This document shows positions 10,519 through 27,547 of a DNA stretch of 64,000 bases, piece by piece; the stretch's first letter is position 1; every line of letters starts with the position of its first letter. A program made the translations under genes and the position numbers. This stretch comes from Amycolatopsis aidingensis. Lineage in GTDB: Bacteria; Actinomycetota; Actinomycetes; Mycobacteriales; Pseudonocardiaceae. The stretch covers positions 310,001-374,000 of the forward strand of contig NZ_CP076538.1 in the NCBI RefSeq assembly GCF_018885265.1, given 5' to 3'. The notes below the pieces were generated by a model. That model had not been told where the DNA came from, made no database searches, and saw nothing but the letters and a program-made list of their open reading frames with translations.

Positions 10519-10947
10519 ATGCGTGAGGACAGCGCTACCGATAGTGAGATCGCCTCCGCCGAGCCACTGATCCGGGTGCTCACCAGGGCGGCACGGGTGG
10601 TCACTTTCCGGGTGGAGCAACTGCTCAAGCCGGAGGGCTTCAGCCTGGACCAGTGGCTGGTGGTCGAGGCGCTGGCCGAGCAACGCGGGTTGTCCATGGC
10701 CGACCTCGCCACCAGGACCATGGTCACCGGCCCGACCCTGACCAGGGTGGTGGACAAGCTGGTGTCGAACGCGGTGGTCTACCGCGAGGTGGACGCCGAG
10801 GACCGCCGCCGGGTGCGCGTGTACCTCAGCCCGCGTGGGCGTGCCGCCTACAAGCGGATCGCGGCGAAGATCGGCAAGGTGGAACGCGAACTGCTCGGCC
10901 AGGCCGACACCAGCAGCATTCTCGCCTTCCTCACCACGCTCAGCTGA
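10519..10947 (+). CDS. MarR-family regulator
   Basis: The 142-residue protein has a central winged helix: FSLDQWLVVEALAEQRGLSM, then MVTGPTLTRVVDKLVSNAVV and a wing DRRRVRVYLSPRGR. Both flanking helical regions for dimerisation are present, so it looks intact. It is divergent from the amidase operon, with 104 bases between starts that hold a candidate operator. I infer that it represses or senses for the amidase genes, taking the place of AmiR. Its TGA and the TGA of the convergent PucR-type gene interlock in the palindrome TCAGCTGA. Confidence 0.88.
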   Translation: MREDSATDSEIASAEPLIRVLTRAARVVTFRVEQLLKPEGFSLDQWLVVEALAEQRGLSMADLATRTMVTGPTLTRVVDKLVSNAVVYREVDAEDRRRVRVYLSPRGRAAYKRIAAKIGKVERELLGQADTSSILAFLTTLS

Positions 10948-12196
10948 GCAGCTGGAGGGCGCGCAGGGAGATCTCGAGCGCGAAGCGTTCGTCCGGGTCG
11001 CGCAGCCGGTCCCCGAACAGGTCCTCCAGCTGGTGCAGGCGGTACCGGACGGTCTGCGGGTGGATGTGCAGGCGGGTCGCGATCTCCGGCGCACTGCCCC
11101 TGGTCTCCAGCAGCGCGAGCAGGGTCTCGCTGAGCCGGGTGCGTTGCTTGACGGTCAGCGGGTCCAGCGGGGCGAGACAGGACCGGGCGAGCTCGCGGAC
11201 CAGGAACTCGTCGGTGGTCAGCAGCAGGGTGGGGAGGTGCTCCCCGCACCAGATCAGCTGCTGGTCGGCCAGTACCCCGCGGCGGGCGAGCTCGAGCGCG
11301 CGCCGGGCCCAGCGCAGCGAGATGTTCGCCTCGGAAAGCCGGACTTTCGGGCCGACCACGGCTCGCCAGCCGGACCGGCAGGCCAGTTCGGACTCCAGTT
11401 CGGACCGTCGTCGGTCCGGATCGGCCACGATAAGGTAGGGCTCGCTGTCGCCGAGATCGGCGAGCACCCCGTCGTCCAGCGCCAGCGCCGCCGGTTCGGC
11501 GAGCTCGTCCCGGCGTTCCAGCGCGACCGCCGCGATATGTTCGGGTAGCTCCCACCGCGCGGGCCCGGCCAGCTCGCCGAGCGCCTCGGTGGAAACCGGT
11601 GGGTCGGAAAGGATCAGCTCCAGCAGGCGTCTTCGGCGGCGTTCCAGCGCGCCCGCGTTGCGTACCTTCGCCGCGGCGTAGCCCTCCACCGACAACGCGG
11701 AGATCTCATCGATGTAGACGAACAGCGCGTCGGCGAGCTGGCAGATGGTGGCCGAGGACAGCTGGGCGGCCTGGCCGAACTCGGCGATCAACCGCCAGGC
11801 GACCCGCGCGCCGACGTGATATGCGGTCTGCAGGGTGTCCACCCCGCGGCCCTCGCTGACCTCCAGCTTGCCGAGCCAGCGAAACAGCTTCGCCGCCTCC
11901 TCCTTGGAGGCGTCCGGATCGGCCATCCGCTCGATGAACTGGTTGATCGCCTGCTCGATTCCCTCGGTGATCGCTTCCCCGAAGCGGCCTTCCAGCGGCC
12001 GGGCGTACTCCGGGATCGAGCGCTGGATCTCGTGCAGGATCGCCGCGGCGACATCGCCCGCCCGTGGCCGGAACATCGCGGCGAGGCTGCGCGGCAGGGC
12101 GGACCAGGGATCGTCCGTGCCGGTGCAGCCCGGTTCACCTTCGCCGTTGCGCGATACCGTTCGCCGGCTCGAATCCGGCCCGGCGACCCATTCCAC
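10940..12196 (-). CDS. PucR-type helix-turn-helix regulator
   Basis: The C-terminal 60 residues carry a PucR/CdaR helix-turn-helix: RLSETLLALLETRGSAPEIA, then RLHIHPQTVRYRLHQLEDLF. The middle holds a degenerate GGDEF-like region and the N-terminus a long helical sensor-like domain (DVAAAILHEIQRSIPEYARP). I place the start at the GTG 12196, 4 bases after GGGGAAGA; the open frame continues upstream but has no resemblance to the family. The predicted length is 418 residues. Ligand and targets are unknown; the neighbours are the amidase cluster and, divergently, the Mce operon 730 bases away. Confidence 0.8.
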   Translation of the reverse strand: MEWVAGPDSSRRTVSRNGEGEPGCTGTDDPWSALPRSLAAMFRPRAGDVAAAILHEIQRSIPEYARPLEGRFGEAITEGIEQAINQFIERMADPDASKEEAAKLFRWLGKLEVSEGRGVDTLQTAYHVGARVAWRLIAEFGQAAQLSSATICQLADALFVYIDEISALSVEGYAAAKVRNAGALERRRRRLLELILSDPPVSTEALGELAGPARWELPEHIAAVALERRDELAEPAALALDDGVLADLGDSEPYLIVADPDRRRSELESELACRSGWRAVVGPKVRLSEANISLRWARRALELARRGVLADQQLIWCGEHLPTLLLTTDEFLVRELARSCLAPLDPLTVKQRTRLSETLLALLETRGSAPEIATRLHIHPQTVRYRLHQLEDLFGDRLRDPDERFALEISLRALQLLS

Positions 12197-12926
12197 GGAT
12201 CTTCCCCTTGGTCTCAACAGATCACGCCACCCTTGTCCGACAGGTCCGCGAATCTTGTAACCTGCGTCACAATATCGATGGTCAGGGTGCTTGTCAACGG
12301 GTTCAATTCGCTCATGGTTAACACAAAACATGCGGGCGACCATTGATTGATCTTCCGGCGATCTTCCGGTGGCCGAAAACCCAGGTCGGCCGGGTTGTGT
12401 TCGGGGTGCACGTCCGCGTCCGGTCGGGGATTGTTTCAATCTTCGACGGTGCTGGATAATTGTCATGTGAAAACCGGGAATCCTGTCGTTTTTGGTGGCC
12501 TTTCGGGTATGTGGCCCGGGCATCTCACGGCGTGTCGGTGCAGGTCGGGTGACGTCCGTTCGGGTTAGCTCAGTCGGCCGCAACCTGCCTATACTGGGCT
12601 TGTTCGCCCACCTCGTTGCGCCGAACGAACCAGCAGGCGTGGTCTTCCCGGAAAACCTGGCTGGGACATCACAATGTTCAACAAGCCTTTTTGGCAGCTT
12701 GGTGACAAATTCCTGAAGCGGTTGATCTGGAACGATCCCGCGGCAAGTGGACACTTGTTTCCCGCGTCACACTGAAGTAACCTACTGGCTGGTAGATATC
12801 TGAAGGAAATTGGACTCGACTACCGCAATACGTCCCGTTGGGTCTATTGATGTGGGCCGCGGCCAGCCTCCGTTAATGGTGCTGCGCTCGCCCGGGGGGC
12901 CCGCATCCGGCCTTAGGAGAATTCGT
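12197..12926. other. Long intergenic region upstream of the Mce operon
   Basis: No gene is supported in these 730 bases, which are less GC-rich than their surroundings. Visible elements are a direct repeat GATCTTCCGG at 12349-12358 and 12360-12369, and a hairpin CAAGTG-GA-CACTTG at 12744-12757 with outer CGCGG/CCGCG arms. A CTAC...GTAG palindrome follows at 12781-12794. A weak KstR half-match GTCAACGGGTTCAA lies at 12293-12306. The Mce transcript most likely starts near 12800. Confidence 0.6.
12777..12799 (+). promoter_or_regulatory. Shared palindrome site 1, upstream of the Mce operon
   Basis: GTAACCTAC-TGGCT-GGTAG begins at 12777 and ends with TAGATA, which could be a -10 element. The same GTAACCTAC-n5-GGTAG arrangement occurs on the minus strand before the secreted protein at 26817-27461, and a related one before the FabH-like gene. 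Confidence 0.5.
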
Positions 12927-14123
12927 ATGATTGGTCGCGTATCTTCATCCAGACTGCGTACCGTGGCGTCGGTGACCACGGTAGGCATGGTCACCGCACT
13001 GGCCGGCGCGCTCGCCGCCGGACCCGCCACCGCGTACACCACGAGTCCGCTGGACGTGGTCAGCAAGGAACTCACCTACACCTGCACCTTCCCACTGGTC
13101 GGCCCGCAGCCGGTCACCGCGACGGTCAGTGTCGACCTGCCGGCCTCGGCTGCCGTCGGGGACCGGATCCAGCCCACCGGTCTCGCCATCGACTTCACGC
13201 TCAGCGAGAACATCGTGACCGCGTTCCGGTTGATCGGCGCCGCCACCATGGAGGCCGATGGGGTCGCCGATGTGGACGTCGCCTTCGGCGGCAGGGACCT
13301 CACCATCGGAGTGCCGAACCTGAAGGCGCCGAAGCAGGACATCCCGGCCAGCGGCCCGATGAGCAGCAGCATGACCGGTCCGATGCCCAGCTTCATCCTG
13401 TACGAACCGGGCTCGCTGGAGATCAGCGCGGGCCAGCAGTTCTTCGCCTCGGCCACCGCGCTGGACGCGAACGGCAACGACACCGCGCTGGGCAACCCGA
13501 TCGACATCCCGTGCACGCAGGATGCGGGCCAGGACCCGCACCTCGGCACGATCGACGTCACCGGCGCGGCCACGGCGGGCCCGGCGACCGGTGTGTCGGC
13601 CCAGGGCAGCGTGGACAAGGAACTCGCCTACACCTGCACCTTCCCCGAGGCCGGGCAGCAGGACGCCGTGGGCAGGGTGACGGCCACCTTCCCGGACCAG
13701 GCGCAGGTGGGCCAGCGCGCCGAGATCACCGACGCCGAGGTACAGGCGGATATCAACGAGGCGAGCGTGGATGTGCTGCGGGACAACGGAGCCGCCACGG
13801 TCGAGGGTTCCGGCCAGGCCGACCTGCACGCCAGCCTCACCGACGCCAGCGGCACGCTGGAGCTGACCCTTGGCCTGCCGGCCACCATCCCGCCGGTGGA
13901 CGTGCCCGCGGCGGGCGGGCTGACCGCGTCCCTGCCGATCAACACCCCGTCGTTGATCTTCCGTGCGGCCGGGGATCTCTCGGTGGCGGCCGGTGACCTG
14001 AACGGCACGCTCACCCCGCGGGACGCCGCGGGCAACGAAACCGCGCTCGGCACCTTCGACGTGCCCTGCCAGCCGCAGGCCGGTCAGGACACGCACCTGG
14101 CGACGGTCCCGATCGTCGCCTGA
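12927..14123 (+). CDS. Secreted protein with two DUF6801-like domains
   Basis: I chose ATG 12927 because AGGAGA lies 6 bases before it and the product then starts with a signal peptide (SSRLRTVASVTTVGMVTALA, cleavage after ATAY or similar). The 398-residue protein has two related domains, about residues 42-205 and 225-398. Each opens with KEL(T/A)YTCTFP, has a conserved late cysteine (IPC or VPC) and closes with GQDPHLGTI or GQDTHLATV. The pattern resembles the secreted actinobacterial DUF6801 family; function is unknown. As first gene of the Mce operon, it may bind or deliver the lipid substrate outside the cell. Confidence 0.75.
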   Translation: MIGRVSSSRLRTVASVTTVGMVTALAGALAAGPATAYTTSPLDVVSKELTYTCTFPLVGPQPVTATVSVDLPASAAVGDRIQPTGLAIDFTLSENIVTAFRLIGAATMEADGVADVDVAFGGRDLTIGVPNLKAPKQDIPASGPMSSSMTGPMPSFILYEPGSLEISAGQQFFASATALDANGNDTALGNPIDIPCTQDAGQDPHLGTIDVTGAATAGPATGVSAQGSVDKELAYTCTFPEAGQQDAVGRVTATFPDQAQVGQRAEITDAEVQADINEASVDVLRDNGAATVEGSGQADLHASLTDASGTLELTLGLPATIPPVDVPAAGGLTASLPINTPSLIFRAAGDLSVAAGDLNGTLTPRDAAGNETALGTFDVPCQPQAGQDTHLATVPIVA

Positions 14124-14192
14124 CCAGCGACCCGGTCCGTGCCCGCCGGCCCGGCGGGCACGGACCGGATCGTTCCAGTGGAAGGAGATCCG

Positions 14193-14807
14193 ATGCCGCG
14201 TGGCCTTTCGATGGTTGCCCTCGTGCCCGCGATGGCTGCCATGCTGACCGCGCCCACCTCGGCCGCGGCCGAGGTGGACGCCATCGAGGTGGACAAGGAA
14301 CTCACCTACACCTGCGAGTTCCCCTATCTCGTCCCGCAGGAGCTCAGCGGCACTGTCCGGGTGAGCCTGCCGGACTCGGTCGAGGTGGGCGAACGGTTCC
14401 AGGCGAACAGCGACGTGACCATCGCGCTCACCCTGAACGAGGACATCGTCACCGTGCTGAACCTGCTGGAAGCGGCCACGTTCGAAGGTACCGCACGGGC
14501 CGATGTGGACGCCGACATCAGCGGTCTCCGCACCACGCTGGGGATTCCGGGGCTGCGCATTCCGGTTACCGAGGTTCCGCCGGAAGGGGAACTGCCGGTC
14601 ACCATCACCGGGACCATGCCCTCACTGATCGCCTACCAGCCCGGCACGCTGACACTGGCCGCAGGCGAGGAGTTCACCGCGACCATCGACGCCCGGCGCG
14701 TGGACGGTTCCCCGATCGAGCTGGGGGAGTTCGACGTCACCTGCGCGATCACCACGACCGATCCGCCGCAGGATCCGCACCTGGCCACGATCCCGATCAC
14801 CGAGTGA
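14193..14807 (+). CDS. Secreted protein with one DUF6801-like domain
   Basis: The ATG at 14193 follows GAAGGAG with good spacing, and residues 1-25 form a signal peptide ending TSAAAE. The mature 180 residues are a single domain that starts DKELTYTCEFPYLVPQELSG and ends VTCAITTTDPPQDPHLATIP. They closely match each half of the preceding protein, including the two cysteines. It is separated from that gene by 69 bases and from the next by 23, in the same direction, and belongs to the Mce transcript. Confidence 0.75.
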   Translation: MPRGLSMVALVPAMAAMLTAPTSAAAEVDAIEVDKELTYTCEFPYLVPQELSGTVRVSLPDSVEVGERFQANSDVTIALTLNEDIVTVLNLLEAATFEGTARADVDADISGLRTTLGIPGLRIPVTEVPPEGELPVTITGTMPSLIAYQPGTLTLAAGEEFTATIDARRVDGSPIELGEFDVTCAITTTDPPQDPHLATIPITE

Positions 14808-14830
14808 GGACCGAGAGCTGAGGAGATTCC

Positions 14831-16303
14831 GTGCTGTCTGTTCGATCGGTACCGCGGCGACGGTCACGTGGTGCCGCGGTCGCGGCGGTGGCGGCGCTGA
14901 CCCTGGTGGCGGGCCCGGTGGCCGCGGGCAGCGCGCCGGACACCGGGGACGCCGTGCTCCAGCCGGTGACCACGAGCCTGCGCAACACCTGCGAGTTCCC
15001 TGGGGCAGGCAGCCAGCCGTTGACGGCGGGTCTCACCGCGAGTTTCCCCACGGTGGTCCGGGCACCGGAGGACCTGCGGGCCGCGGACGTCTCGGTGGGC
15101 CTGGTCCTGCCCGCAGGCACGGTCACCGCGTTGCGGGCCGCGGGGATGGACTCGTTGGCCGGCACCGTGCGGGTGAACGCCTTCGCCCAGCACGCGGGAA
15201 AGCGGGCCAAGGCGCAGGCGAAGGCGGAGCTGCCTGCCCAGCCGCTGCCCGACGATGGCGAGCTCGTCCTGCGGCTACCCGGCGAGCTGGAACCGATCGC
15301 GACCAACGCGGCCGGTGAGGTAGCGCTGACCCTGGACCGGCCCGAGCTGATCCTGCTCGGCGAGGCCGAGACCGGGACCGGGGCCGAGACCGGTGCGGCG
15401 GGCTCGCCCGCCGGGGTGTTCTGCACCGTGGAGGAGGGCCAGGACACCGCGCTGGCCACCGTGCGGGTGGCGGCGGCCGACCGGACTCCCACCCCCAGCA
15501 CCACAACGGACCCGAGCACACCCGGATCGACCGGGTCCAGCACGCGAAGCACGATCCCTTCGCAGTCCACAGTAGACACAACCGACGCTTCCTCCTCGGC
15601 GCACCGGGCCGGGGAAGGCCCACCGGGGGCGGCGGCCGACACCGCCAACCTGTGCGGTACCGAGATACCGCCGGACGCGATCCAGGTCCGGCGGGGCTAC
15701 TACAACGTGGTGGTGACCGCCGGGGTCCGGAAGCTGGACTCGGACATCGTGTTCGGACCACCCGGCTACCTCGGCGGGGACCTCTGGCTCTGGCTACGCC
15801 GCAACCCCGACACCGGCGGAATCCTGTACTGCAACGGGATCAGCGGCGACCTGTGGCTGCCCGAGACAAGGGACTCGTTCGTGATCTTCCGGTTCGTGCC
15901 GGCATCCGCGCTGGTCAAGGTCAGTCAGACCGCCCCGGCCGAGGGCTCGGTCGACCCGCTGGAGTTCGTGTTCGAGGGCACCGCGACCGCGATGATGACC
16001 ATGCGCGACGTCCGGGTGAACGGGACGCCGCTCGATGTCGGGCCGGACTGCGGCACCAGGGTGCCGATCGAGATCGAGCTCTCCTCCGAGCCGGGCGAGT
16101 GGGACCTGGCCAACGGCGGGGTCATGGAGTCGGAGTACACCATTCCGGAGTTCGCGAACTGCGGCGTCACCGAGCCGCTGGACTCGCTGTTCACCAACCT
16201 CGTCTCCGGCCCGGACAACCACATCCGGATCGAGTTCAGCCCGATCCGGGAGTGCTCGGTTCCCGACCCGCCACCGGTGTGCGCGCGGCCGGAGGAGGGA
16301 TAG
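14831..16303 (+). CDS. Two-domain secreted protein of the Mce operon
   Basis: GTG 14831 follows GAGGAGATTCC. After a signal peptide (RSRGAAVAAVAALTLVAGPV) comes a diverged DUF6801-like domain, from LRNTCEFPGAGSQPL to GQDTALATVRV. A Thr/Ser/Pro linker lies near residues 220-265. A second domain of about 215 residues starts NLCGTEIPPDAIQVRRGYYN. Its last part (DCGTRVPIEIELSSEP, YTIPEFANCGV, LVSGPDNHIRIEF) is plainly related to the C-terminal half of the secreted protein encoded at 26817-27461. The next gene, mceG, starts 3 bases after the stop. Function unknown; likely an extracytoplasmic partner of the importer. Confidence 0.75.
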   Translation: MLSVRSVPRRRSRGAAVAAVAALTLVAGPVAAGSAPDTGDAVLQPVTTSLRNTCEFPGAGSQPLTAGLTASFPTVVRAPEDLRAADVSVGLVLPAGTVTALRAAGMDSLAGTVRVNAFAQHAGKRAKAQAKAELPAQPLPDDGELVLRLPGELEPIATNAAGEVALTLDRPELILLGEAETGTGAETGAAGSPAGVFCTVEEGQDTALATVRVAAADRTPTPSTTTDPSTPGSTGSSTRSTIPSQSTVDTTDASSSAHRAGEGPPGAAADTANLCGTEIPPDAIQVRRGYYNVVVTAGVRKLDSDIVFGPPGYLGGDLWLWLRRNPDTGGILYCNGISGDLWLPETRDSFVIFRFVPASALVKVSQTAPAEGSVDPLEFVFEGTATAMMTMRDVRVNGTPLDVGPDCGTRVPIEIELSSEPGEWDLANGGVMESEYTIPEFANCGVTEPLDSLFTNLVSGPDNHIRIEFSPIRECSVPDPPPVCARPEEG

Positions 16304-16306
16304 CCG

Positions 16307-17326
16307 ATGGGTGCCGAAGTGGCCGTGGAGGGCCTGAGCAAGTCCTTCGGGAGCCAGAACATCTGGCGGGACGTCTCGTTGGTGCTGCCGGAGGGCGAGG
16401 TGAGCGTGCTGCTCGGGCCGTCCGGAACCGGCAAGTCCGTGTTCCTGAAATGCCTGATCGGTCTGCTCCGGCCGGAGCGGGGCAGTGTCCGGCTGGACGG
16501 GGTGGACCTGGTGCGCTGCTCGGAACACCAGCTGTACTCCGCCCGCAGGCAGTTCGGGGTGCTGTTCCAGGACGGTGCCCTGTTCGGCTCGATGAACCTC
16601 TACGACAACATCGCCTTCCCGCTGCGCGAGCACACGCGCAAGAGTGAGACGGAGATCCGGCAGCTCGTCGGGGCGAAAATGGAGCTGGTCGGGCTCACCG
16701 GCGCGGAACGGAAACTGCCCGGCGAGCTGTCCGGCGGGATGCGCAAGCGGGCCGGGCTGGCCAGGGCGCTGGTGCTGGAGCCGCGGATCATCCTGTGCGA
16801 CGAGCCGGACTCCGGACTCGACCCGGTCCGCACCGCCTATCTCGCCCAGCTGCTGATCGACCTGAACGCGCAGCTGGACACCACGATCCTGATCGTCACG
16901 CACAACATCGCCGTGGCGCGCACGGTTCCGGACAACGTCGGGATGCTGTTCCGCCGCAGGCTGGTCCTGTTCGGGCCGCGTGAGGTGCTGCTGACCAGCA
17001 CCGAACCCGCGGTGGCCCAGTTCCTGCGCGGCAGGCGGATCGGCCCGATCGGGATGAGCGAGGAGAAGGACAGCGCCACCATGGCCGCCGAGGCGGCCCA
17101 GGACCCCGGCGAGGAGCCCGAGGAGCAGGCGCGGGTGGTGCCGCAGCTCGAACCGACGCCGGGGCTGCCGCCGCGGCGGGCCGTCCAGCGGCGCAAGGAC
17201 CGGGTGATGCGGCTGCTGCCCCAGCTCCCGGAACAGGCACGGCAGGACATCCTGGCCTGCCTCACCGATGCCGAGCGACATCGTTACGGCGTGCCCGTCC
17301 CGCAGCCGAGGGGGTACCGGCCATGA
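16307..17326 (+). CDS. mceG: Mce transporter ATPase MceG/Mkl
   Basis: This cytoplasmic ATPase powers lipid import through the YrbE permeases. Walker A is GPSGTGKS (37-44), the Q-loop VLFQDGALF (86-94), the signature LSGGM (141-145) and Walker B IILCDEPD (161-168), with the switch His in VTHN. The protein is 339 residues. Beyond the 250-residue core lies the C-terminal extension typical of Mkl proteins, which ends in a basic helix (RRKDRVMRLLPQLPEQARQD). In mycobacteria mceG is unlinked; here it heads the transporter genes, as in Streptomyces. It overlaps yrbEA by ATGA. Confidence 0.93.
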   Translation: MGAEVAVEGLSKSFGSQNIWRDVSLVLPEGEVSVLLGPSGTGKSVFLKCLIGLLRPERGSVRLDGVDLVRCSEHQLYSARRQFGVLFQDGALFGSMNLYDNIAFPLREHTRKSETEIRQLVGAKMELVGLTGAERKLPGELSGGMRKRAGLARALVLEPRIILCDEPDSGLDPVRTAYLAQLLIDLNAQLDTTILIVTHNIAVARTVPDNVGMLFRRRLVLFGPREVLLTSTEPAVAQFLRGRRIGPIGMSEEKDSATMAAEAAQDPGEEPEEQARVVPQLEPTPGLPPRRAVQRRKDRVMRLLPQLPEQARQDILACLTDAERHRYGVPVPQPRGYRP

Positions 17327-18111
17327 GCGCCCCGCCGGTCGCGAGCATGGGCCTTGCCGCGCTGCGCCAGGTGGGAATGTTGTGCTCGCTGGGGCTGGAT
17401 GTGTTGCGGCTGAGCCTGAAGCCGCCGTACCAGTTCCGCGAGTTCATCCAGCAGTGCTGGTTCATCGTCCGGGTCAGCATCCTGCCCGCGGCGCTGGTTT
17501 CCATCCCGTTCGGCGCGGTGATCGCGCTGCAGCTGGGTTCGCTGACCCAGCAGATCGGCGCGCAGTCGTTCACCGGGTCGGCCAGCGTGCTGGCGGTGAT
17601 CCAGCAGGCCAGCCCGCTGATCACCGCGCTGCTGATCGCGGGCGCGGGCGGCAGCGCCGTCTGTGCCGATCTCGGCTCCCGCACCATCCGGGAGGAGATC
17701 GACGCGATGCGGGCGCTCGGGGTGTCCCCGATCCACCGGCTGGTGGTGCCGAGGGTGCATGCCGCGATCGTGATCGCGGTGCTGCTGAACGGCATGGTGA
17801 GCGTGGTCGGGGTGCTCGGCGGCTACTTCTTCAACGTGATCATGCAGGACGGAACCCCCGGGGCCTACCTGGCCTCGTTCTCCGCGCTGGCCCAGCTGCC
17901 GGACCTGTGGATCAGCGAGATCAAGGCAGTCCTCTTCGGATTCATCGCCGGGATGGTCGCGGCCTTCCGCGGGCTGAACCCGCCGCCGGGACCGAAGGGC
18001 GTCGGGGACGCGGTGAACCAGTCCGTGGTGATCACCTTCCTGCTGCTGTTCTTCCTCAACTTCATCCTCACGACGATCTACTTGCAGATCGTCCCGCCGA
18101 AGGCGTTGTGA
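17323..18111 (+). CDS. yrbEA: YrbE/MlaE-type Mce permease, first copy
   Basis: The 262-residue integral membrane protein belongs to the MlaE family. The cytoplasmic coupling segment DLGSRTIREEIDAMRALGVS (about 120-140) is the family hallmark that contacts MceG. About five membrane segments surround it, including ALVSIPFGAVIALQLGSL and IAVLLNGMVSVVGVLGGYFF. It overlaps mceG by 4 bases, and the second YrbE gene starts 4 bases after its stop, so the two permease halves should be made in equal amounts. Confidence 0.93.
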   Translation: MSAPPVASMGLAALRQVGMLCSLGLDVLRLSLKPPYQFREFIQQCWFIVRVSILPAALVSIPFGAVIALQLGSLTQQIGAQSFTGSASVLAVIQQASPLITALLIAGAGGSAVCADLGSRTIREEIDAMRALGVSPIHRLVVPRVHAAIVIAVLLNGMVSVVGVLGGYFFNVIMQDGTPGAYLASFSALAQLPDLWISEIKAVLFGFIAGMVAAFRGLNPPPGPKGVGDAVNQSVVITFLLLFFLNFILTTIYLQIVPPKAL

Positions 18112-18115
18112 TCCG

Positions 18116-18955
18116 ATGACAGATACGGGACTGAAGCGGCGCGGGCCCGTCGACCGGTCGCTGGACCCGCTGGGCAGGCTCGGCGACCAGCTTTCCTTCT
18201 ACCTGCGCGCCCTGCTGTGGGTGCCGCGCACCCTGCACCGGTACTTCAAGGAAGTGGTGCGGCTGCTGGCCGAGGTCAGTTTCGGCACCGGGGCGCTCGC
18301 CGTGATCGGCGGCACGATCGGCGTCATGGTGGGCCTTTCCGTGTTCACCGGCACGGTGGTCGGCCTACAGGGCTTCTCCGCACTGAACCAGGTGGGCACC
18401 TCGGCCTTCGCCGGGTTCCTCTCCGCCTACTTCAACACGCGCGAGATCGCCCCGCTGGTGGCCGGGCTCGCGCTGTCCGCGACCGTGGGCTCAGGGTTCA
18501 CCGCGCAGCTTGGCGCGATGCGCATCTCCGAGGAGATCGACGCGCTGGAGGTGATGGGGGTGCCCAGCCTCCCGTTCCTGGTCACCACCCGGATCATCGC
18601 CGGGTTCATCGCGATCATCCCGCTGTACGTGATCGGCCTGCTCACCTCCTACCTGGCCGCGCGCACCATCACCGTGGAGTTCTACGGGCAGTCGACCGGG
18701 ACCTACGACCACTACTTCACCTTGTTCCTACCCCCTGAGGACGTGGTCTGGTCCTTCGTCAAGGTGCTGGTGTTCAGCGTGGTGATCATCCTGGCGCACT
18801 GCTACTACGGCTACCGCGCCGCGGGTGGCCCGGCCGGGGTCGGGGTGGCCGTCGGGCGCGCCGTGCGCTCGGCGATCGTGACCATCGCGGTGCTCGACTT
18901 CTTCCTCAGCCTTGCCATCTGGGGAACCACCACGACGGTGAGGATCGCGGGATGA
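18116..18955 (+). CDS. yrbEB: YrbE/MlaE-type Mce permease, second copy
   Basis: This 279-residue partner of the previous permease carries the same coupling motif as GAMRISEEIDALEVMGVPSL (about 140-160) and similar membrane segments. An N-terminal cytoplasmic extension (DRSLDPLGRLGDQLSFYLR) distinguishes YrbEB from YrbEA. The two YrbE proteins form the heterodimeric channel base of Mce importers. Its stop overlaps the mceA start (ATGA). Confidence 0.93.
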   Translation: MTDTGLKRRGPVDRSLDPLGRLGDQLSFYLRALLWVPRTLHRYFKEVVRLLAEVSFGTGALAVIGGTIGVMVGLSVFTGTVVGLQGFSALNQVGTSAFAGFLSAYFNTREIAPLVAGLALSATVGSGFTAQLGAMRISEEIDALEVMGVPSLPFLVTTRIIAGFIAIIPLYVIGLLTSYLAARTITVEFYGQSTGTYDHYFTLFLPPEDVVWSFVKVLVFSVVIILAHCYYGYRAAGGPAGVGVAVGRAVRSAIVTIAVLDFFLSLAIWGTTTTVRIAG

Positions 18956-20214
18956 GGGGACACAGTCCGGAGGAACGGTTCCGCAGCCCTGGGCTGCGCG
19001 TGCTCGGCGTGGTCTACCTGGTGATCGTGGCGGTGTTCCTGTGGCTCACCATCGCCATCTACCGCGACGTGTTCAGCACCGAGGTCCCGGTGACCCTGCG
19101 CGCCGACCACGTCGGCAACCAGCTCCAGGCACAGGCGGATGTGAAGATGCGCGGGCTGATCGTGGGCACGGTGCGCGAAGTGGACAGTCACGGCGACGCC
19201 GCCGAGCTCGAGCTGGCCATGGACCCCGAGCTGATCGACAAGGTACCCAGCAACGTCTCCGCCCGGCTGCTGCCGAAAACCCTGTTCGGGGAGCGGTACG
19301 TGAGCCTGGTCGAACCCGCGGACCCGGCGCCGACCCCGCTTTCGGCCGGGGACGTGATCGGCCAGGACCGCTCCGCCGCATCGATCGAGCTGGAGCGGGT
19401 GCTGAACAACCTGCTGCCGCTGCTGCGTTCGGTGGAACCGGCCCAGCTGGCGAGCACCCTGAACGCACTCGCCCAGGCGCTGGAGGGGCGCGGCGAGCCG
19501 CTGGGTGACACGCTGGTCCGGGTCGGCAACTACCTCGGCGAGCTGAACCCGCAGCTACCCGAGATCAAGGACGACATCTCCGCCTTCGCCGACGTCTCCG
19601 ACACCTACGACGCCGCGGCTGGCGACTTCCTGCACGCGCTTTCCGATCTCACCGTGACCAGCAGGACGGTGGTGCAGCAGCGGGCGAACCTGGACGCGCT
19701 GTACCGCACACTCACCGCCGCGACCAGGGACGTCACCGGGTTCCTCGAACAGAACAAGGAAACCCTGATCCGGCTCTCCGCCTCCGCCCGGCCCACCCTG
19801 GACGTACTGGCCCGCTACGCCCCGCAGTACGCCTGCATGCTGGACTCGGTCACCGACCTGATCCCCCGGCTGGAGAAGACCTTCGGCAAGGGCACCGACA
19901 AACCCGGCCTGCACGTGAAACTCCGGTTCGTGCCGGACCGGGGGCAGTACTACCCGGGGACCGACGACCCGCGCTACGACGACACGCGCGGTCCCCGCTG
20001 CTACGGCTCGGACGGTGGCGAGGACTCCGCAGCCGCGATCCCCGCTTTGTCCACGATGGACTCCGAGCTGGGTCCGGCGAACTCCCCGCAGGAAAGGAAC
20101 TTTCTCGCCGCCGTGCTGGCGCCGACGCTGGGGGTGCGGCCCGCGGAGGTGCCGGAGTGGAGCAGCCTGCTGCTCGGCCCGTTGCTGCGTGGGACGGAGG
20201 TGGAGTTCGAATGA
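18952..20214 (+). CDS. mceA: Mce family protein A
   Basis: One N-terminal membrane anchor (LRVLGVVYLVIVAVFLWLTI, about 15-37) leads into an MCE domain at about 44-120 with VKMRGLIVGTVREV and LFGERYVSL. A long helical region follows, then an Asp/Gly-rich tail. Mce proteins form a hexameric tunnel that carries lipids from the outer layer to the YrbE permease. Letter names here follow gene order; this first one resembles MceA by position and by its tail YYPGTDDPRYDDTRGPRCYG. It has 420 residues and overlaps both neighbours by ATGA. Confidence 0.92.
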   Translation: MRGHSPEERFRSPGLRVLGVVYLVIVAVFLWLTIAIYRDVFSTEVPVTLRADHVGNQLQAQADVKMRGLIVGTVREVDSHGDAAELELAMDPELIDKVPSNVSARLLPKTLFGERYVSLVEPADPAPTPLSAGDVIGQDRSAASIELERVLNNLLPLLRSVEPAQLASTLNALAQALEGRGEPLGDTLVRVGNYLGELNPQLPEIKDDISAFADVSDTYDAAAGDFLHALSDLTVTSRTVVQQRANLDALYRTLTAATRDVTGFLEQNKETLIRLSASARPTLDVLARYAPQYACMLDSVTDLIPRLEKTFGKGTDKPGLHVKLRFVPDRGQYYPGTDDPRYDDTRGPRCYGSDGGEDSAAAIPALSTMDSELGPANSPQERNFLAAVLAPTLGVRPAEVPEWSSLLLGPLLRGTEVEFE

Positions 20215-21233
20215 GGGACATCCTTGCGCCGCTGGTGAAACTGATCGTGTTCGCCGTCGTCACGCTGCTCAGCACCGGTCTGCTGGCGATGTCCATCGCG
20301 AACACCGACCTGCGGGCATCGCATGAGTACTCCGCGCGGTTCACCGACGTCACCTCGCTGGTGGAGGGGGACGACGTGCGGGTCGGCGGGGTGCGGGTCG
20401 GCGAGGTGGAAAGCATCGAGCTGATCGACCGGCGGCTGGCCAGGGTGGAGTTCTCGGTTGACGCCGACCGGGTCCTTCCCGCCTCGGTGACCGCGGGCCT
20501 GAAGTACCGCAACATGCTCGGGCAGCGCTATATCGCGCTAGAGCGCGGCGTCGGCGAGGTGGACGGGGTGCTGCCGCCGGGCGGGGAGATCCCGCTGGAG
20601 CGCACCAGTCCCGCGCTGGACCTGACCCTGCTGTTCAACGGTTTCCGCCCGCTGTTCCAGGCGCTGTCCCCACAGGACGTGAACAAGCTGTCCTACGAGC
20701 TGATCCAGGTGTTCCAGGGCGAGGGCAGCACGGTGGACAGCCTGCTGCGGCACACCGCCTCGCTGACCTCCACCATCGCCGGCAAGGACGAGGTGATCGG
20801 CAAGGTGATCGGCAACCTGAACCAGGTGCTGGACACGGTGAACGCCCGCGGCTCCGAGCTGTCCTCCTTGCTGGACACCGTGCAGCGGTTCGTCTCCGGG
20901 CTGGCCGCGGACCGCGAACCGGTCGGCGAGGCGATCACCTCACTTGGTGATCTCGCCGACTCCACCGCCGGGCTGCTCGCGGACGGCCGCCCGGCGCTGC
21001 GGTCGAGCATCGGCGAGCTCGGCCGGTTGTCCGAGAACCTCGCCGACAACGAGGAGATCGTCGAATCCGCACTGCGGAACCTTCCAGTGAAGATGGAGTC
21101 GGTGACGCGGATGTCCTCCTACGGCTCCTGGATGAACTTCTTCCTGTGCGAGGCGACCACCTCGCCCGCGGCGGGAAGCTCGCCGCTGCCGCTGGCCGGG
21201 ATCCCGCGCACCGAGCCGAGGTGCTACCGATGA
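20211..21233 (+). CDS. mceB: Mce family protein B
   Basis: ATG 20211 overlaps the mceA stop, which fixes the start. The 340-residue protein has a single N-terminal anchor (LVKLIVFAVVTLLSTGLLAM), an MCE domain with FTDVTSLVEGDDVRVGGVRV and MLGQRYIALE, and a long helical stretch rich in Leu/Asp/Ser that forms the tunnel. It ends in FLCEATTSPAAGS and a Pro/Arg tail. Part of the coupled mceA-F run. Confidence 0.92.
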   Translation: MRDILAPLVKLIVFAVVTLLSTGLLAMSIANTDLRASHEYSARFTDVTSLVEGDDVRVGGVRVGEVESIELIDRRLARVEFSVDADRVLPASVTAGLKYRNMLGQRYIALERGVGEVDGVLPPGGEIPLERTSPALDLTLLFNGFRPLFQALSPQDVNKLSYELIQVFQGEGSTVDSLLRHTASLTSTIAGKDEVIGKVIGNLNQVLDTVNARGSELSSLLDTVQRFVSGLAADREPVGEAITSLGDLADSTAGLLADGRPALRSSIGELGRLSENLADNEEIVESALRNLPVKMESVTRMSSYGSWMNFFLCEATTSPAAGSSPLPLAGIPRTEPRCYR

Positions 21234-22234
21234 AAAGTTTCTCCGAACGCAACCAGGCAGGCATCGGCACGGTGAGCATCGTGCTGCTCAGCTTGATCGC
21301 GCTGGTCACCTTCTACTCCGAGGACCTGCCGATCATCGGCGGCGGCACCACCTACACCGCGCACTTCGCCGAGGCCGCGGGCCTCACCGCGAGTACCGAG
21401 GTGCGGGCCGCCGGGGTGAAGGTCGGCACGGTCACCGCCGTCGAGCTGGAGGGCGACCACGTGCGGGTCACCTTCCGGGTGGACGACGCCTGGGTCGGCG
21501 ACCGCACCACCGCGGAGATCGGGATCAAGACCCTGCTGGGCTCGAAGTACCTTGCGATCGACCCGCGGGGCAGCGCACGGCAGGACCCGGACGAGCCCAT
21601 CCCGCTGGAGCGCACCACCACTCCCTTCGACATCAACGAGGTGTTCGACCAGCTCTCCGCCACCGTCGGGGATATCGACACCGACCGGCTGGCCAGGTCG
21701 ATGCGGGTGCTCACCGAGACCTTCGCCGACTCGCCACCGCATGTGCGCTCGGCACTGGAAGGGCTTTCCGCGCTGTCCGAGACGATCGCCTCCAGGGATG
21801 CCGAGCTGGCCAAGCTGCTGGAGAACACCCGCAAGGTCTCCCGTACCTTCGCCGACCGCAAGGACGCGGTGCGGCAACTGCTTTCCGACGGCAACCTGCT
21901 GCTGGCGGAGCTGCGCGCGCGCAAGGAGTCGATCAGCGAGTTGCTTTCCGGGACCCGCGAGCTCTCCGCGCAGCTACGCGGGCTGGTCGCGGACAACTCG
22001 GGCCGGCTGCGCCCGGCGCTGGAGCAGCTGGACCGGGTGAACGCCGTGCTGCAACGCAACCAGGAGGAGCTGAACCGCAGCCTGGCGCTGGCAGGCCCGT
22101 ACTACCGGCTGATCGGCAACACCATGGGCAACGGCAGGTGGATCGAGACCTACCTGTGCGGGCTGATCGAACCGCCGGAGGGCGAGCCCTGCGCGCCACC
22201 GAAGGAACCCTTCCCGCAAGGAGGACCGCGATGA
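21230..22234 (+). CDS. mceC: Mce family protein C
   Basis: The ATG overlaps the mceB stop. The 334-residue protein has an anchor at GTVSIVLLSLIALVTFYSED and an MCE domain with FAEAAGLTASTEVRAAGVKV and LLGSKYLAIDPRG. A helical coiled region with repeated STR/ELS blocks follows. The end YLCGLIEPPEGEPCAPPK includes cysteines common in MceC proteins. It is subunit C of the lipid tunnel by position. Confidence 0.92.
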   Translation: MKSFSERNQAGIGTVSIVLLSLIALVTFYSEDLPIIGGGTTYTAHFAEAAGLTASTEVRAAGVKVGTVTAVELEGDHVRVTFRVDDAWVGDRTTAEIGIKTLLGSKYLAIDPRGSARQDPDEPIPLERTTTPFDINEVFDQLSATVGDIDTDRLARSMRVLTETFADSPPHVRSALEGLSALSETIASRDAELAKLLENTRKVSRTFADRKDAVRQLLSDGNLLLAELRARKESISELLSGTRELSAQLRGLVADNSGRLRPALEQLDRVNAVLQRNQEELNRSLALAGPYYRLIGNTMGNGRWIETYLCGLIEPPEGEPCAPPKEPFPQGGPR

Positions 22235-23289
22235 GCCCGGCCGGAACGCGCAAGGGCCTGCGTGCGGGCATCACCCTGACCATCCTCGCCGTGCTGCTGG
22301 CCGCGGCCACCGTGCTGATCATCCGGCCGGGCGGGCAGCAGCGGTTCACCGCGTACTTCACCGCGGCGGTGGGCCTCTACCCCGGCTCGACCGTGCGGGT
22401 GCTCGGCATCCCGGTGGGCACGGTGGCGGAGGTGGTCCCGGAGGGCGAGCGGGTGCGGGTGGAGCTCGCGGTGGACTCGGATGTGCCGATCCCGGAAGGC
22501 GCCTCCGCCGCCGTGGTGGCGCCCAGCCTGGTCAGCGACAGGTACGTGCAGTTCGTCCCGGTGTACACGCAGGGCCCGAAACTGGCCTCGGGCGCGGTGA
22601 TCCCGGTGCAGCGCACGGTCACCCCTGCGGAGCTGGACGAGCTGTTCGCCAGCCTGGACGAGCTGGCCGGTGCGCTCGGCCCGGACGGGGCGAACTCCGA
22701 TGGCGCGCTTTCGGACCTGCTGGACACCCTCGCGGAGAATGCGGACGGCAACGGGAAGCTGATCAATGACACGATCAGCAAACTGGCCGCGGCCAACCAG
22801 ACGCTGTCGGGCACCAGGGACGAGCTGTTCGGCACGGTGTCCAGCTTGCAGGAGTTCACCAGCATGCTGGCGGGCAACGACGACCAGGTGGTCGAGTTCG
22901 CCAGGCAGCTGGCCGACATCTCCGCCTTCCTCAGCGGGGAACGCACCGAGCTGGGCGCCGCGGTGAGCGAGCTTGCCACCGCTCTGGAGTCGGTGCGCGG
23001 GTTCATCAAGGACAACCGCGGGCACCTCAAGTCCAACGTGGACAAACTGGTGGAGATCACCAAGGTGCTTGTCGACCAGCGGGACTCGCTGGCCGAGGCG
23101 CTGGACACCGCGCCGAACGCGGTGGAGAACTTCTACCAGGGATACAACCCGCAGCGGCGCACCCTGGACTCCCGCACCCTGCTGCTGGAGTGGTGGCCGC
23201 AGTCCCAGCAGGACTCCGGTGCGCCGGAGGACGCGCCCGCACTGCCGCTGCCACCGGTCGGGCCCGCCTACAGCACGGGAGGTTCCTGA
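22231..23289 (+). CDS. mceD: Mce family protein D
   Basis: Start fixed by the ATGA overlap with mceC. The 352-residue protein has an anchor (AGITLTILAVLLAAATVLII), then YFTAAVGLYPGSTVRVLGIP and VSDRYVQFVPVY within the MCE domain. A helical region follows (SLDELAGALGPDG, LAADIS-like repeats), with a C-terminal Pro-rich tail after VENFYQGYNPQRRTLDSR, a feature of MceD proteins. The next gene begins 3 bases after the stop. Confidence 0.92.
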   Translation: MSPAGTRKGLRAGITLTILAVLLAAATVLIIRPGGQQRFTAYFTAAVGLYPGSTVRVLGIPVGTVAEVVPEGERVRVELAVDSDVPIPEGASAAVVAPSLVSDRYVQFVPVYTQGPKLASGAVIPVQRTVTPAELDELFASLDELAGALGPDGANSDGALSDLLDTLAENADGNGKLINDTISKLAAANQTLSGTRDELFGTVSSLQEFTSMLAGNDDQVVEFARQLADISAFLSGERTELGAAVSELATALESVRGFIKDNRGHLKSNVDKLVEITKVLVDQRDSLAEALDTAPNAVENFYQGYNPQRRTLDSRTLLLEWWPQSQQDSGAPEDAPALPLPPVGPAYSTGGS

Positions 23290-23292
23290 GAG

Positions 23293-24420
23293 ATGGCGCT
23301 TGAACGGGAGTTGACTGCTCGAGGTGACCGCGTTCGGGAACAAGCACTGATGCGCCGCCGGGTCATGCCCGTGGCCGTGCTGGCCGCGTTCTCGCTCACC
23401 GGCTGTGGTGCGGGCGGGTTCAACGGGATCTACGCGCTGCCGCTGCCCGGTGGGGCCGATCTCGGTGCGCATCCGTACCAGGTGACCATCGAGTTCGCCA
23501 ACGTGCTGGACCTTGTGCCGCAGGCCGGGGTCAAGGTGAACGACGTGCCGGTGGGCAGGGTGGACCGGATCGAGGTCGCGCCACAGGACTGGACGGCGCG
23601 GGTGACCGTCTCGGTGCACGGGTCGGTCGACCTGCCCGCGAACGCGCACGCGAGCGTGCGGCAGTCCAGCCTGCTCGGGGAGAAGTTCGTGCAGCTGAGC
23701 GAACCCGCGGGCGGCGGGACCGGGAAGCTCAACGACGGGGCGCTGATCCCGCTGGAGCGCAGCAATCGCAACGCCGAGGTGGAGGAGGTCTTCGGCGCGC
23801 TCTCGCTGCTGCTCAACGGTGGCGGTGTCGGGCAGATCCAGCAGATCACCAGCGAGCTGAACCAGGCGCTGGACGGCAACGAGGAAGGACTTCGTGCACT
23901 GCTGTCCAATATGGACACATTTGTCAGTCAGCTGGACGCGCACCGGCACGAGATCACCAGGGCGCTGGAGGGGGTGAACCGGCTTTCGGCCACCCTGGCC
24001 GGGCAGCGCGAGCGGATCGACGAGGTGCTGCGTGACCTCCAGCCTGGGGTGGAGATCCTGGCCCAGCAGCGGGAGTCGCTGGTGACGATGCTGCGCTCGC
24101 TGGATTCGCTCTCGGCCGTCGCGGTGGACACGATCGACAAGGCCGGCGCGGATATGGTGGCCGACCTGCGGCGGCTGGAGCCGATCCTGCGCAACCTCGC
24201 CGACGCGGGCAAGGATCTGCCCGAGGCTTTCGAACTGCTGCTGACCTTCCCGTTCCCGGACTCGGCGATGGAGATGTTCCGGGGCGACTACGGCAACGTG
24301 TTCGTCGATCTGGACACCCCGGTGCCGCCGGGTGAGCCCACCGAACCCGGTGCGCCGGGTGCCCCGGTCGTCCCGCTCCGTCCGATGGATTCACCCGCGT
24401 TACCAGGGGGCGAGAAATGA
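23293..24420 (+). CDS. mceE: Mce family lipoprotein E
   Basis: MceE subunits are usually lipoproteins, and here a lipobox LTGC follows the hydrophobic core VMPVAVLAAFSL. The annotated ATG 23293 has GGGAGG about 10 bases upstream. An internal ATG 23350 gives a more standard signal peptide (MRRRVMPVAVLAAFS) but has a weaker ribosome site. The MCE domain runs from YQVTIEFANVLDLVPQAGVK to LLGEKFVQLSEP. The rest is helical, with a Pro-rich end. The stop overlaps mceF by ATGA. Confidence 0.9.
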   Translation: MALERELTARGDRVREQALMRRRVMPVAVLAAFSLTGCGAGGFNGIYALPLPGGADLGAHPYQVTIEFANVLDLVPQAGVKVNDVPVGRVDRIEVAPQDWTARVTVSVHGSVDLPANAHASVRQSSLLGEKFVQLSEPAGGGTGKLNDGALIPLERSNRNAEVEEVFGALSLLLNGGGVGQIQQITSELNQALDGNEEGLRALLSNMDTFVSQLDAHRHEITRALEGVNRLSATLAGQRERIDEVLRDLQPGVEILAQQRESLVTMLRSLDSLSAVAVDTIDKAGADMVADLRRLEPILRNLADAGKDLPEAFELLLTFPFPDSAMEMFRGDYGNVFVDLDTPVPPGEPTEPGAPGAPVVPLRPMDSPALPGGEK

Positions 24421-25592
24421 TCACGCGCAAGGTGCAGCTCCAGGTGGCCGTGTTCGTGCTGGTCGCGCTGGTCGGCGTGAGCTACGTCGGGTACAGCTAC
24501 GCCGGGCTGGACCGGATGTTCGGCGGCAGCGGGATGGTGGTGCAGGTACGGCTGGCCTCGTCCGGCGGACTGTTCACCAATGGGGAGGTCACCTATCGCG
24601 GGGTGCAGGTCGGGCGGGTCGGCCCGATGCGGCTTGCAGGGGAGGGGATCGAGGCTGACCTCTACCTCGAGGACTCGGCCCCGCCCATCCCCGCGGACAC
24701 CGCGGCCGTGGTCACCAACCGGTCCGCCGTCGGGGAGCAGTACCTCGACCTGCGGCCGCGGTCGGCGGATGGCCCCTTCCTCACCGAGGGATCGGTGATC
24801 GAGCAGGACCGGACCAGTCTCCCGCCCCCGGTCGAACAAGTGATGTCTACATTGGACAGCATGGTCGCCTCGGTACCGTTGGACTCGCTGCGTACCGTGG
24901 TGCGCGAGGCCGGGGCGGCCTTCCAGGGTACCGGGCCGGAGCTTGGCAAGCTGATGGACAGCGCGGACGCGTTCACCCGCACCGCCGTGGAACACCTGCC
25001 GCAGACCAGCAAGTTGATCACCGACGCGCGTACCGTGCTGAACACGCAGGTGGAGCAGGCACCCGCGATCGACTCGTTCAGCCGGGACCTGCGGCTGCTC
25101 GCCGAGCAGTTCAAGCATTCCGATGGCGACCTGCGCAGGCTGATCGGTGCCACCCCGCCTGCCGCCGAGGAGACCAGCGCGCTGCTGGCCGAGTCCGGCA
25201 GGGGGCTCGGGCTGGTGCTGGCGAACCTGCTGACCCCTTCGATGATCTTCGAGAGCAGGACCGCGGCCACCGAGCAGTTGCTGGTCTACTACCCGCTCGC
25301 GCTCAGCGCCACCGAGGATGTGGTCGGCAGGGACGGGGAGGCCCGGTTCGCCTCGGTGCTGCGCTTCTTCGAGCCGGAGCCATGCATCCGGGGCTACCAG
25401 GACACGGTGTACCGGCCGGGCACCGACACCTCGCCCGCCCCGGAGCTGAACACGCGGGCGCGCTGCACCCTGCCGTACGGGCACCCGAGTTCGGTCCGGG
25501 GTTCGCAGCACGCACCGAAGGGCGCGCCCGCGCCCGATCCGGATGGCCTGAGCCAGTTGCTCGGGGTCGACCTGCTGCGAGGTGGACGGTGA
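24417..25592 (+). CDS. mceF: Mce family protein F
   Basis: The 391-residue last Mce subunit has an anchor VQLQVAVFVLVALVGVSYVG and an MCE domain with GGLFTNGEVTYRGVQVGRVG and AVGEQYLDLRPR. A long helical part follows, then a tail with CIRGYQDTVYRPGTDTSPAP that is typical of MceF. It overlaps mceE (ATGA) and the following Mce-associated gene (GTGA), so nine genes from mceG on are tightly coupled. Confidence 0.92.
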   Translation: MITRKVQLQVAVFVLVALVGVSYVGYSYAGLDRMFGGSGMVVQVRLASSGGLFTNGEVTYRGVQVGRVGPMRLAGEGIEADLYLEDSAPPIPADTAAVVTNRSAVGEQYLDLRPRSADGPFLTEGSVIEQDRTSLPPPVEQVMSTLDSMVASVPLDSLRTVVREAGAAFQGTGPELGKLMDSADAFTRTAVEHLPQTSKLITDARTVLNTQVEQAPAIDSFSRDLRLLAEQFKHSDGDLRRLIGATPPAAEETSALLAESGRGLGLVLANLLTPSMIFESRTAATEQLLVYYPLALSATEDVVGRDGEARFASVLRFFEPEPCIRGYQDTVYRPGTDTSPAPELNTRARCTLPYGHPSSVRGSQHAPKGAPAPDPDGLSQLLGVDLLRGGR

Positions 25593-26158
25593 CAAGTACC
25601 GCGGAACCGACGGAGGTGGCGGAGCCGACGGAGCCGGAACCGGTCCGGCCGCGCCGTCCGCGGGCGAGCATGATCCTGGCCCTGGTGCTGGTGGTCGCCG
25701 CGCTCGGCTATGCGGGGTGGGCCGGGTTCTCCTGGTGGCGGGCCGCCGACCAGGCAGGCGGCTACGCGCAGGCGAGGGACGAGGTGCTGCGGGTAGGCGA
25801 GCAGGGCGTCACCAACCTCACCACCATGGACCACACCCGGTTCGATGAGGGGATGAGCCGGTGGCGCGATTCGGCGACCGGGGCGCTGCGGGACAGCCTG
25901 GTGCAGGACGCCCAGCGAACCAGGGAGCGGATCACCGGCGCGCGGACCTCCACCCGCGGGAAGGTGGTGGACGCCGCGGTGACCGAGCTGGATCAGCGCG
26001 CCGGGTCCGCCACCGTGATCACCGCCGTGGAGATCACCGTGACCAAGGAGGGTGCCGAGCCCGCGGTACGGCGCAACCGGTTCCAGGTGGAACTGCGCCG
26101 TACCGATGACGGCTGGAAGCTGAGCGCGTTGAGCGCGGTCGGTGTCGGCGGCGAGTGA
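25589..26158 (+). CDS. Mce-associated membrane protein
   Basis: GTG 25589 overlaps the mceF stop (GTGA). The 189-residue protein has an acidic/Pro N-terminus (TEVAEPTEPEPVRPRRPR), one membrane segment (MILALVLVVAALGYAGWAGF) and an extracytoplasmic alpha/beta domain that ends FQVELRRTDDGWKLSALSAV. This is the Mam fold, related to nuclear-transport-factor-like domains, found behind Mce operons where it stabilises the transporter (as OmamA/LucA-type proteins do in mycobacteria). A longer frame upstream lies inside mceF and is not real. Confidence 0.85.
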   Translation: MTSTAEPTEVAEPTEPEPVRPRRPRASMILALVLVVAALGYAGWAGFSWWRAADQAGGYAQARDEVLRVGEQGVTNLTTMDHTRFDEGMSRWRDSATGALRDSLVQDAQRTRERITGARTSTRGKVVDAAVTELDQRAGSATVITAVEITVTKEGAEPAVRRNRFQVELRRTDDGWKLSALSAVGVGGE

Positions 26159-26715
26159 GGAGAGTGGCGGTGTCGAGACTGGCGAGACTGTGGCGACTGC
26201 CGCGCCCGCGGCGCGGGCCCGGAACCCCGGTGCTGCTGGTGCTGACCGCGGCGGTGCTGGTGGGGCTCGGGTCCTGGTTCCTTGCCGAGGCACGGGCCGC
26301 GGCCTCCGGTGGGGCGGACGGCAACGCCGCCCTGGTGGACACCGGCCTGACCACCGAGGTGAGCGGGCAGGTCGGCGAGGCGCTGGAACGGGTCTTTTCC
26401 TATTCCTACGACGATATGGCGGCCACCGAGCGGGCGGCCGAGCAGGTGCTGGCCGGTTCCGCGGTGCAGGACTACGACCTGCTGTTCGGTCAGGTGCGGG
26501 ACAAGGCGCCGGAGCAGAAGCTGGTGCTGTCCACCACGGTTTCGGTCAGCGGGGTGCGGACCGTGGACTCGTCCAGTGCGCATCTGCTGGTGTTCCTTGA
26601 CCAGACGGCCACCAGAGTGGACACCGGCAAGAGCAACGCCACCGCGGCCGTGCTGAGCGTGGACGCCGAGCGGATGGACGGCCGCTGGAAGATCACCGGA
26701 CTGGTGCCGCGCTAA
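26155..26715 (+). CDS. Mce-associated membrane protein, second copy
   Basis: GTG 26155 overlaps the previous stop (GTGA). The N-terminus is strongly basic (RLARLWRLPRPRRGPG), followed by a membrane segment (PVLLVLTAAVLVGLGSWFLA). The external domain has FSYSYDDMAATERAAEQVLA and ends ERMDGRWKITGLVPR, the same pattern as the preceding protein. It is the last gene of the operon; two strong inverted repeats follow. Confidence 0.85.
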   Translation: MRRVAVSRLARLWRLPRPRRGPGTPVLLVLTAAVLVGLGSWFLAEARAAASGGADGNAALVDTGLTTEVSGQVGEALERVFSYSYDDMAATERAAEQVLAGSAVQDYDLLFGQVRDKAPEQKLVLSTTVSVSGVRTVDSSSAHLLVFLDQTATRVDTGKSNATAAVLSVDAERMDGRWKITGLVPR

Positions 26716-27461: not shown

Positions 27462-27524
27462 GGAAATCTCCTGCATGACGAGCAGACGCGAATACAGACT
27501 TTGGTCACAGAGTTTTCGCAGGGT

Positions 27525-27547
27525 GTACCTACCAATGGGTAGGTTAC
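27525..27547 (-). promoter_or_regulatory. Shared palindrome site 2
   Basis: On the minus strand the site reads GTAACCTACCCATTGGTAGG. The core ACCTACC-n4-GGTAGGT (27527-27544) is symmetrical at 16 of 18 positions. It lies 66 bases before the secreted-protein start and matches the Mce-operon site in GTAACCTAC and GGTAG. Confidence 0.55.

Follow-up and report, generated by a model that had tools for sequence, protein, structure and literature searches.

The 64,000-nucleotide stretch of Amycolatopsis aidingensis analysed here (contig NZ_CP076538.1, positions 310,001 to 374,000; hereafter the window, in whose coordinates features are given) holds an mce operon that is directly preceded by three genes for exported proteins. 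Together these proteins carry four copies of the Pfam domain DUF6801 (PF20611), and the third ends in a predicted beta-barrel domain that has no Pfam entry. We use D for DUF6801, c for the barrel domain and D-c for a protein with both. The pairing of D and c with mce genes goes beyond this locus, across several actinobacterial families, and it recurs with one class of mce operon. We propose, with confidence about evenly balanced, that the three genes form the exported half of a distinct actinobacterial Mce subclass, in which the D-c protein would capture a lipid and hand it to the Mce portal.

The exported proteins and their operon

The four DUF6801 domains found by Pfam lie within 12927-16303, immediately upstream of mkl-yrbEA-yrbEB-mceA-F. 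The first protein (398 residues, 12927-14123, forward strand like the rest of the unit) has a hydrophobic signal-like segment at its N-terminus and two DUF6801 domains (E 1.2e-73), the second (204 residues, 14193-14807) has one (E 7.9e-46), and the third (490 residues, 14831-16303) is a D-c protein in which DUF6801 (E 1.4e-14) is followed by a disordered linker and the C-terminal barrel. Their scores of 246.9, 156.5 and 54.9 bits are all above the curated Pfam cut-off of 26 bits, and the individual copies are at 13074-13547, 13626-14102, 14304-14786 and 14987-15457. A preliminary description of the window, made from its letters alone, had recognised four copies of one domain in three consecutive secreted proteins, and the Pfam count of two, one and one agrees with it. 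The opening motif that it gave, TCxFP, is present in all four copies. Its closing motif, QDxHLATI, was drawn too narrowly, since the copies read QDPHLGTI, QDTHLATV, QDPHLATI and QDTALATV. Two cysteines stand at equivalent sites in every copy of the window; because this pair is often but not always kept in relatives, the sequences suggest a disulphide that is likely but not obligatory. The nearest named protein to the 204-residue product, at 85% identity, is from Amycolatopsis cihanbeyliensis.

Signal-like N-termini are general among the relatives of these proteins. We collected the 80 loci of named species that best matched the third protein (among them Streptomyces, Actinomadura, Thermomonospora, Saccharomonospora, Kutzneria and Amycolatopsis) and scanned the stop-to-stop frames of these named loci with a simple script. 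A hydrophobic segment precedes the first domain in 97 of the 99 D/c open frames, and neither a lipobox-like motif nor a C-terminal anchor was detected in any of the 99.

The third exported gene is separated by a 3-base gap from the gene of an Mkl/MceG-like ATP-binding cassette (ABC) ATPase (16307-17326, ABC_tran E 2.3e-29), which in turn overlaps yrbEA, all in the same direction. The remainder is what is expected of an actinobacterial Mce operon with its linked ATPase, namely two MlaE permeases, YrbEA (17323-18111, E 6.2e-67) and YrbEB (18116-18955, E 3.5e-63), followed by six MCE proteins, mceA to mceF (18952-25592), of which the first three match Mce4_CUP1/MlaD and the last three TIGR00996. 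The earlier assignment of the exported proteins to the mce unit stands, and they recur with it in several actinobacterial families.

Between genes 1 and 2 lies a strong, near-perfect hairpin with a core of 17 pairs (14126-14174, forward strand; -48.6 kcal/mol, z -6.6 against 200 shuffles), at which we looked for a T-run terminator and found none. Stems of 17 to 25 pairs also occur 3' of D/c genes at three other loci (L145, L019 and L146). A reasonable reading is that the hairpin could step expression down from an abundant secreted protein to the transporter. The arrangement recalls the solute-binding proteins of ABC importers, which are likewise exported and encoded first, a strong hairpin following the first gene, as in the case of malE. 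As solute-binding proteins themselves D and c can be set aside, with no such Pfam family matched up to E 10, predicted folds that are nearly all strand, and no lipobox.

Predicted folds of the two domains

The preliminary description overlooked the C-terminal domain of the third protein (15680-16237). This domain has no Pfam model; the Pfam matches of the third protein are DUF6801 and one family at chance level. It is predicted with high confidence as a beta-barrel (mean predicted local distance difference test score, pLDDT, of 94.2, from 55 sequences), whereas the linker before it is disordered (pLDDT below 50 at residues 218-271). A further copy, also missed earlier, is found on the reverse strand within an exported c-only protein (26817-27569; domain match 26829-27446, 166 bits). 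A profile built for c found 118 copies in 98 stretches. D-linker-c is the architecture seen most often, in 75 of the 178 open frames that bear D or c.

The DUF6801 domain is predicted to fold as an immunoglobulin/arrestin-like sandwich, and the predicted D and c domains both consist almost entirely of strands, each having a single helix of 8-9 residues. The c model resembles OmpW, DynF and PagP and, more weakly, YceI. Its identity to the named YceI/lipocalin-like and OmpW/PagP barrels is about 6-11%, and D-c differs from these proteins in its linker and partner domain. We also measured the amphipathy of the c strands, a measure that does not separate the inside of the barrel from the outside. 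The substrate capture suggested in the preliminary description fits a predicted barrel on a protein with no recognisable anchor, and the ligand would be a lipid; contact with the Mce hexamer, or the wall-side tunnel extension that was its other suggestion, is conjectural.

The same models bear on the possibility that the ligand of the barrel is not a lipid but, for instance, haem, or that the barrel is enzymatic, with the importer carrying a modified product. We consider this very unlikely. Structural matches of this type exist for c but rank below OmpW, DynF and PagP and fall within the range of a common arrangement, and in Pfam c matched none of the enzyme families above chance (best E of any family 0.067). 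On the earlier concern that the structures might reveal an unrelated enzyme, the structural matches include no conspicuous one, but none of these matches is significant by Foldseek.

Linkage to one class of mce operon

A tie to mce is seen in 121 genomes of the genus of G400, which by inference is Streptomyces. A DUF6801 match is present in 41 of these (40 above the cut-off) and MlaE in 53. Their 54 mce loci fall into two classes, A and B, separated by where the second YrbE match starts within the Pfam profile. DUF6801 lies within 8 kb at 32 of the 34 class B loci (at 2.6-5.1 kb) and at 0 of the 20 class A loci. One class B miss, G599, has no D or c in an entire 15 kb contig, 8 kb of which precede yrbE; the other, G632, is a highly fragmented assembly with a DUF6801 match at a contig end. 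Counted from the domain, 34 of 54 Streptomyces matches are near mce (within 9 kb), a total that includes the sub-cut-off match of G621, which is outside the genome table.

In a quick tree of concatenated YrbEA and YrbEB from 127 loci, the D/c label changes 4 times against a mean of 35.6 when shuffled, and 0 of 500 shuffles were as low; support for the inner branches around the window is moderate and near-copies favour this test. The 19 class A loci in this tree (of the 20, used separately from the G599 stretch) form one clade with a Shimodaira-Hasegawa-like approximate likelihood ratio (SH-aLRT) support of 100. In a tree of 207 c domains the mce-linked and unlinked copies are likewise separated, with 9 changes against a shuffled mean of 54.

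Class B also has companions of its own. In the window a PucR-type regulator gene sits just before the first DUF6801 gene on the opposite strand (10940-12754, R4, PF13556 E 1.3e-19; this is the open frame, whose true start is uncertain, with the conserved part from about 12103). Its gene cluster is present at 71 of 80 class B-related loci versus 0 of the 19 class A loci. Two more exported families with no clear Pfam match accompany class B, one of about 225 residues at 40 of 80 loci (for example L146:5685-6371) and one of about 338 residues at 44 of 80 (L150:11545-12480). As side observations, class A has an exported-looking protein of about 389 residues at 12 of 19 loci (L226:6429-7598) and a sigma-factor-like protein of about 362 residues at 18 of 19 (L225:11608-12744), both named from sequence only.

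Wider samples extend the pattern. A local profile scan found yrbE/mce genes in 72 of the 80 named loci, and the 8 loci without them may not be counter-examples, because all were shortened by a contig end. The query here was an mce-linked third protein, and therefore what is mce-linked is its nearest family, not all DUF6801. In the order sample DUF6801 occurs in 35 of 298 genomes and MlaE in 183, with both in 34 of the 35; in the window's own family DUF6801 is present in 30 of 53 mce-bearing genomes. In the phylum sample DUF6801 is above the cut-off in 5 of 296 genomes, all five with MlaE, which overall is present in 48; in one of them, G414, it is not close to any listed MlaE place, and two more genomes with a sub-cut-off match are not among the MlaE carriers. 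These large searches scored only part of the candidates in some genomes.

Since the named loci were picked via the third protein and the remaining loci via DUF6801, counts for c are subject to selection. Among the loci chosen in this way, c-only proteins are mce-linked in 31 of 33 classifiable rows. Ten near-closed genomes are the nearest to an unbiased sample for c, although all were picked as DUF6801 carriers and mce positions come only from the stretches read. In these, 24 of 34 c and 25 of 43 DUF6801 copies have a yrbE or mce gene no more than 10 kb away; within 10 kb of yrbE alone there are 15 c and 12 DUF6801, in an area that makes up about 0.6% of the genome. Seen from the transporter, D or c is present inside 10 kb at 9 of 24 yrbE loci, and for the remaining 15 no copy lies within 500 kb.

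Several observations weigh against the proposed role of these domains in lipid transport. In the window's own genome (7.66 Mb, single contig) there are 8 DUF6801 matches and 10 MlaE matches, corresponding to five mce loci. Six of the 8 are upstream of two mce loci, a seventh lies 7 kb past the mce genes at the second of these, and the eighth is isolated; the three other mce loci (L022, L023 and L024) have no D/c within 500 kb and are yet close in the tree. Class A importers manage without D/c, and L244, which the tree places among class B, has no D/c in its 15 kb contig. The other 20 of the 54 Streptomyces matches lie away from mce, and 7 Streptomyces genomes have DUF6801 above the cut-off and no MlaE. 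When stretches of about 20 kb around the listed matches of the order sample and those of the own genome were read, some of them ending at a contig edge, 65 of 94 were without mce genes and 29 contained them. (The 94 comprise four stretches of the own genome and 90 of the 92 computed for the order sample, two being omitted as overlapping others; the genome table counts 188 matches, 8 of them in the own genome, and the listed rows drawn on numbered 144, all from other genomes, with none listed for G033 and G227.) Finally, no Foldseek match to the PDB at E <= 0.001 was found for either the D or the c model, and small beta-barrels are a common arrangement. The preliminary description made a transporter role depend on the domain not lying mostly away from mce loci, and here the answer is mixed, the ten genomes leaning one way and the 94 stretches the other, with some copies in tandem arrays or in long proteins that bear fibronectin-type repeats. 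As DUF6801 also occurs apart from mce, the domain is not a transporter part by definition.

These numbers could mean that D and c are general cell-surface modules for adhesion or wall architecture, recruited beside one mce lineage and co-inherited with it without a direct part in transport. The 65 stretches without mce would fit, as would long D-containing proteins with fibronectin-type repeats and tandem arrays of five D-c proteins in stretches without yrbE or mce (L054 and L070, in G001 and G030 of one genus). We regard this as fairly unlikely, given the retention of the domains at 32 of the 34 Streptomyces class B loci, their survival at named loci of either layout, same-sense or divergent, the MlaE genes in all but one of the order-sample carriers, and the mce linkage of nearly all c-only proteins in the selected loci. 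A separate observation is L248, in another order of the same class, where c-like domains on long branches occur on an mce stretch without DUF6801.

The last piece of linkage concerns the permeases. Four stretches (L083, L091, L099 and L138) carry D/c genes beside five to six mce genes but no yrbE, and in the genomes with such an arrangement (G083, G111, G150 and G290) the sole yrbE pair is more than 2 Mb off, so that these permease-free cassettes would have to borrow a permease. What D/c is linked to at such loci is the MCE proteins, which form the portion lying outside the membrane. This is also what one would expect if the exported proteins were structural parts on the wall side, carrying no lipid themselves but capping the Mce portal, anchoring it or extending it across the thick wall. 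A spacer between D and c that varies, and that contains fibronectin type III repeats in 2 of 4 long proteins tested, would suit a length-adjusting tether. We nevertheless judge this unlikely, as a fixed tether has no need of the c-only and D-only proteins that exist, and the barrel is similar not to pores alone but also to ligand-binding barrels.

Proposed role and known systems

Under the reading that we favour, that of an exported half of an Mce subclass, the D-c protein and its D-only companions would be secreted with no recognisable anchor, and outside the membrane a hydrophobic ligand would be picked up by the c barrel. Through its DUF6801 sandwich the protein would be tethered either to the wall or to the portal at the C-terminal end of the Mce hexamer; there the ligand could enter the needle and YrbEAB-Mkl would pump it inward, and the divergent PucR-type protein may control the unit. 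The data themselves establish which genes are present and in what order, the signal-like N-termini, the recurrence with one class of mce operon and folds predicted with confidence, whereas lipid binding and docking are the weakest links in this scheme. A preprint on Mce1 describes how the C-termini of the six MCE proteins together form a portal, which substrates may enter directly or via additional unknown factors (PMC9882608). At D-c loci such an additional factor may be encoded next door. A stronger version, which we put forward tentatively as possible, is that D-c proteins are previously unrecognised secreted lipid carriers that, in actinobacteria lacking a mycolate outer membrane, stand in for the step of entry through that membrane, the barrel collecting lipid outside the wall and docking via DUF6801 on the portal, and that they are the additional factors of that preprint.

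The Mce1-4 systems of Mycobacterium (YrbEAB, MceA-F, MceG/Mkl, Mas, LucA/LucB) share with the window a core of an ABC ATPase, two MlaE permeases and six MCE proteins. They differ in that the core of the window is preceded by the three exported DUF6801/c proteins and the divergent regulator, and DUF6801 was found in 0 of 50 mce-bearing genomes of a family that is probably the mycolate-bearing Mycobacteriaceae. In the sections seen of a phylogenomic study of mce operons that included two Streptomyces genomes, an Mkl-like gene upstream of yrbEA, as in the window, is reported for mce6, Mkl and Mas are named as linked genes, and DUF6801-type proteins did not appear (PMC1810536). The Mas proteins are likewise extracellular accessories encoded with mce operons (Casali and Riley 2007); according to that paper they have an N-terminal membrane segment or signal and a predicted domain of four helices and four strands. 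D and c do not follow this helix-then-strand order, being almost wholly strand by prediction, which sets them apart from Mas proteins. In the window two small genes occupy the Mas position (25382-26715, forward strand; open frames, the first start probably later), an assignment by position with just weak SnoaL-like and DUF1206 matches under the Pfam cut-offs. Further downstream of the mce operon is a trypsin-like secreted protease (27792-28616, PF00089, E 9.8e-41). The term DUF6801 was absent from the literature collection searched, beyond which other papers may exist, and among the top matches on mce and accessory proteins in Streptomyces, Amycolatopsis and Actinomadura, as far as their text was available, there was no description of a protein of this type.

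How lipids enter the tip of an Mce importer is an open question, and D-c makes it directly testable outside pathogens, in Streptomyces, which can be grown and handled in the laboratory. DUF6801 gains a first function to test, and c is a barrel domain new to Pfam. A secreted two-part family in some soil bacteria may be the missing extracellular factor that hands lipids over to one branch of the Mce importers.
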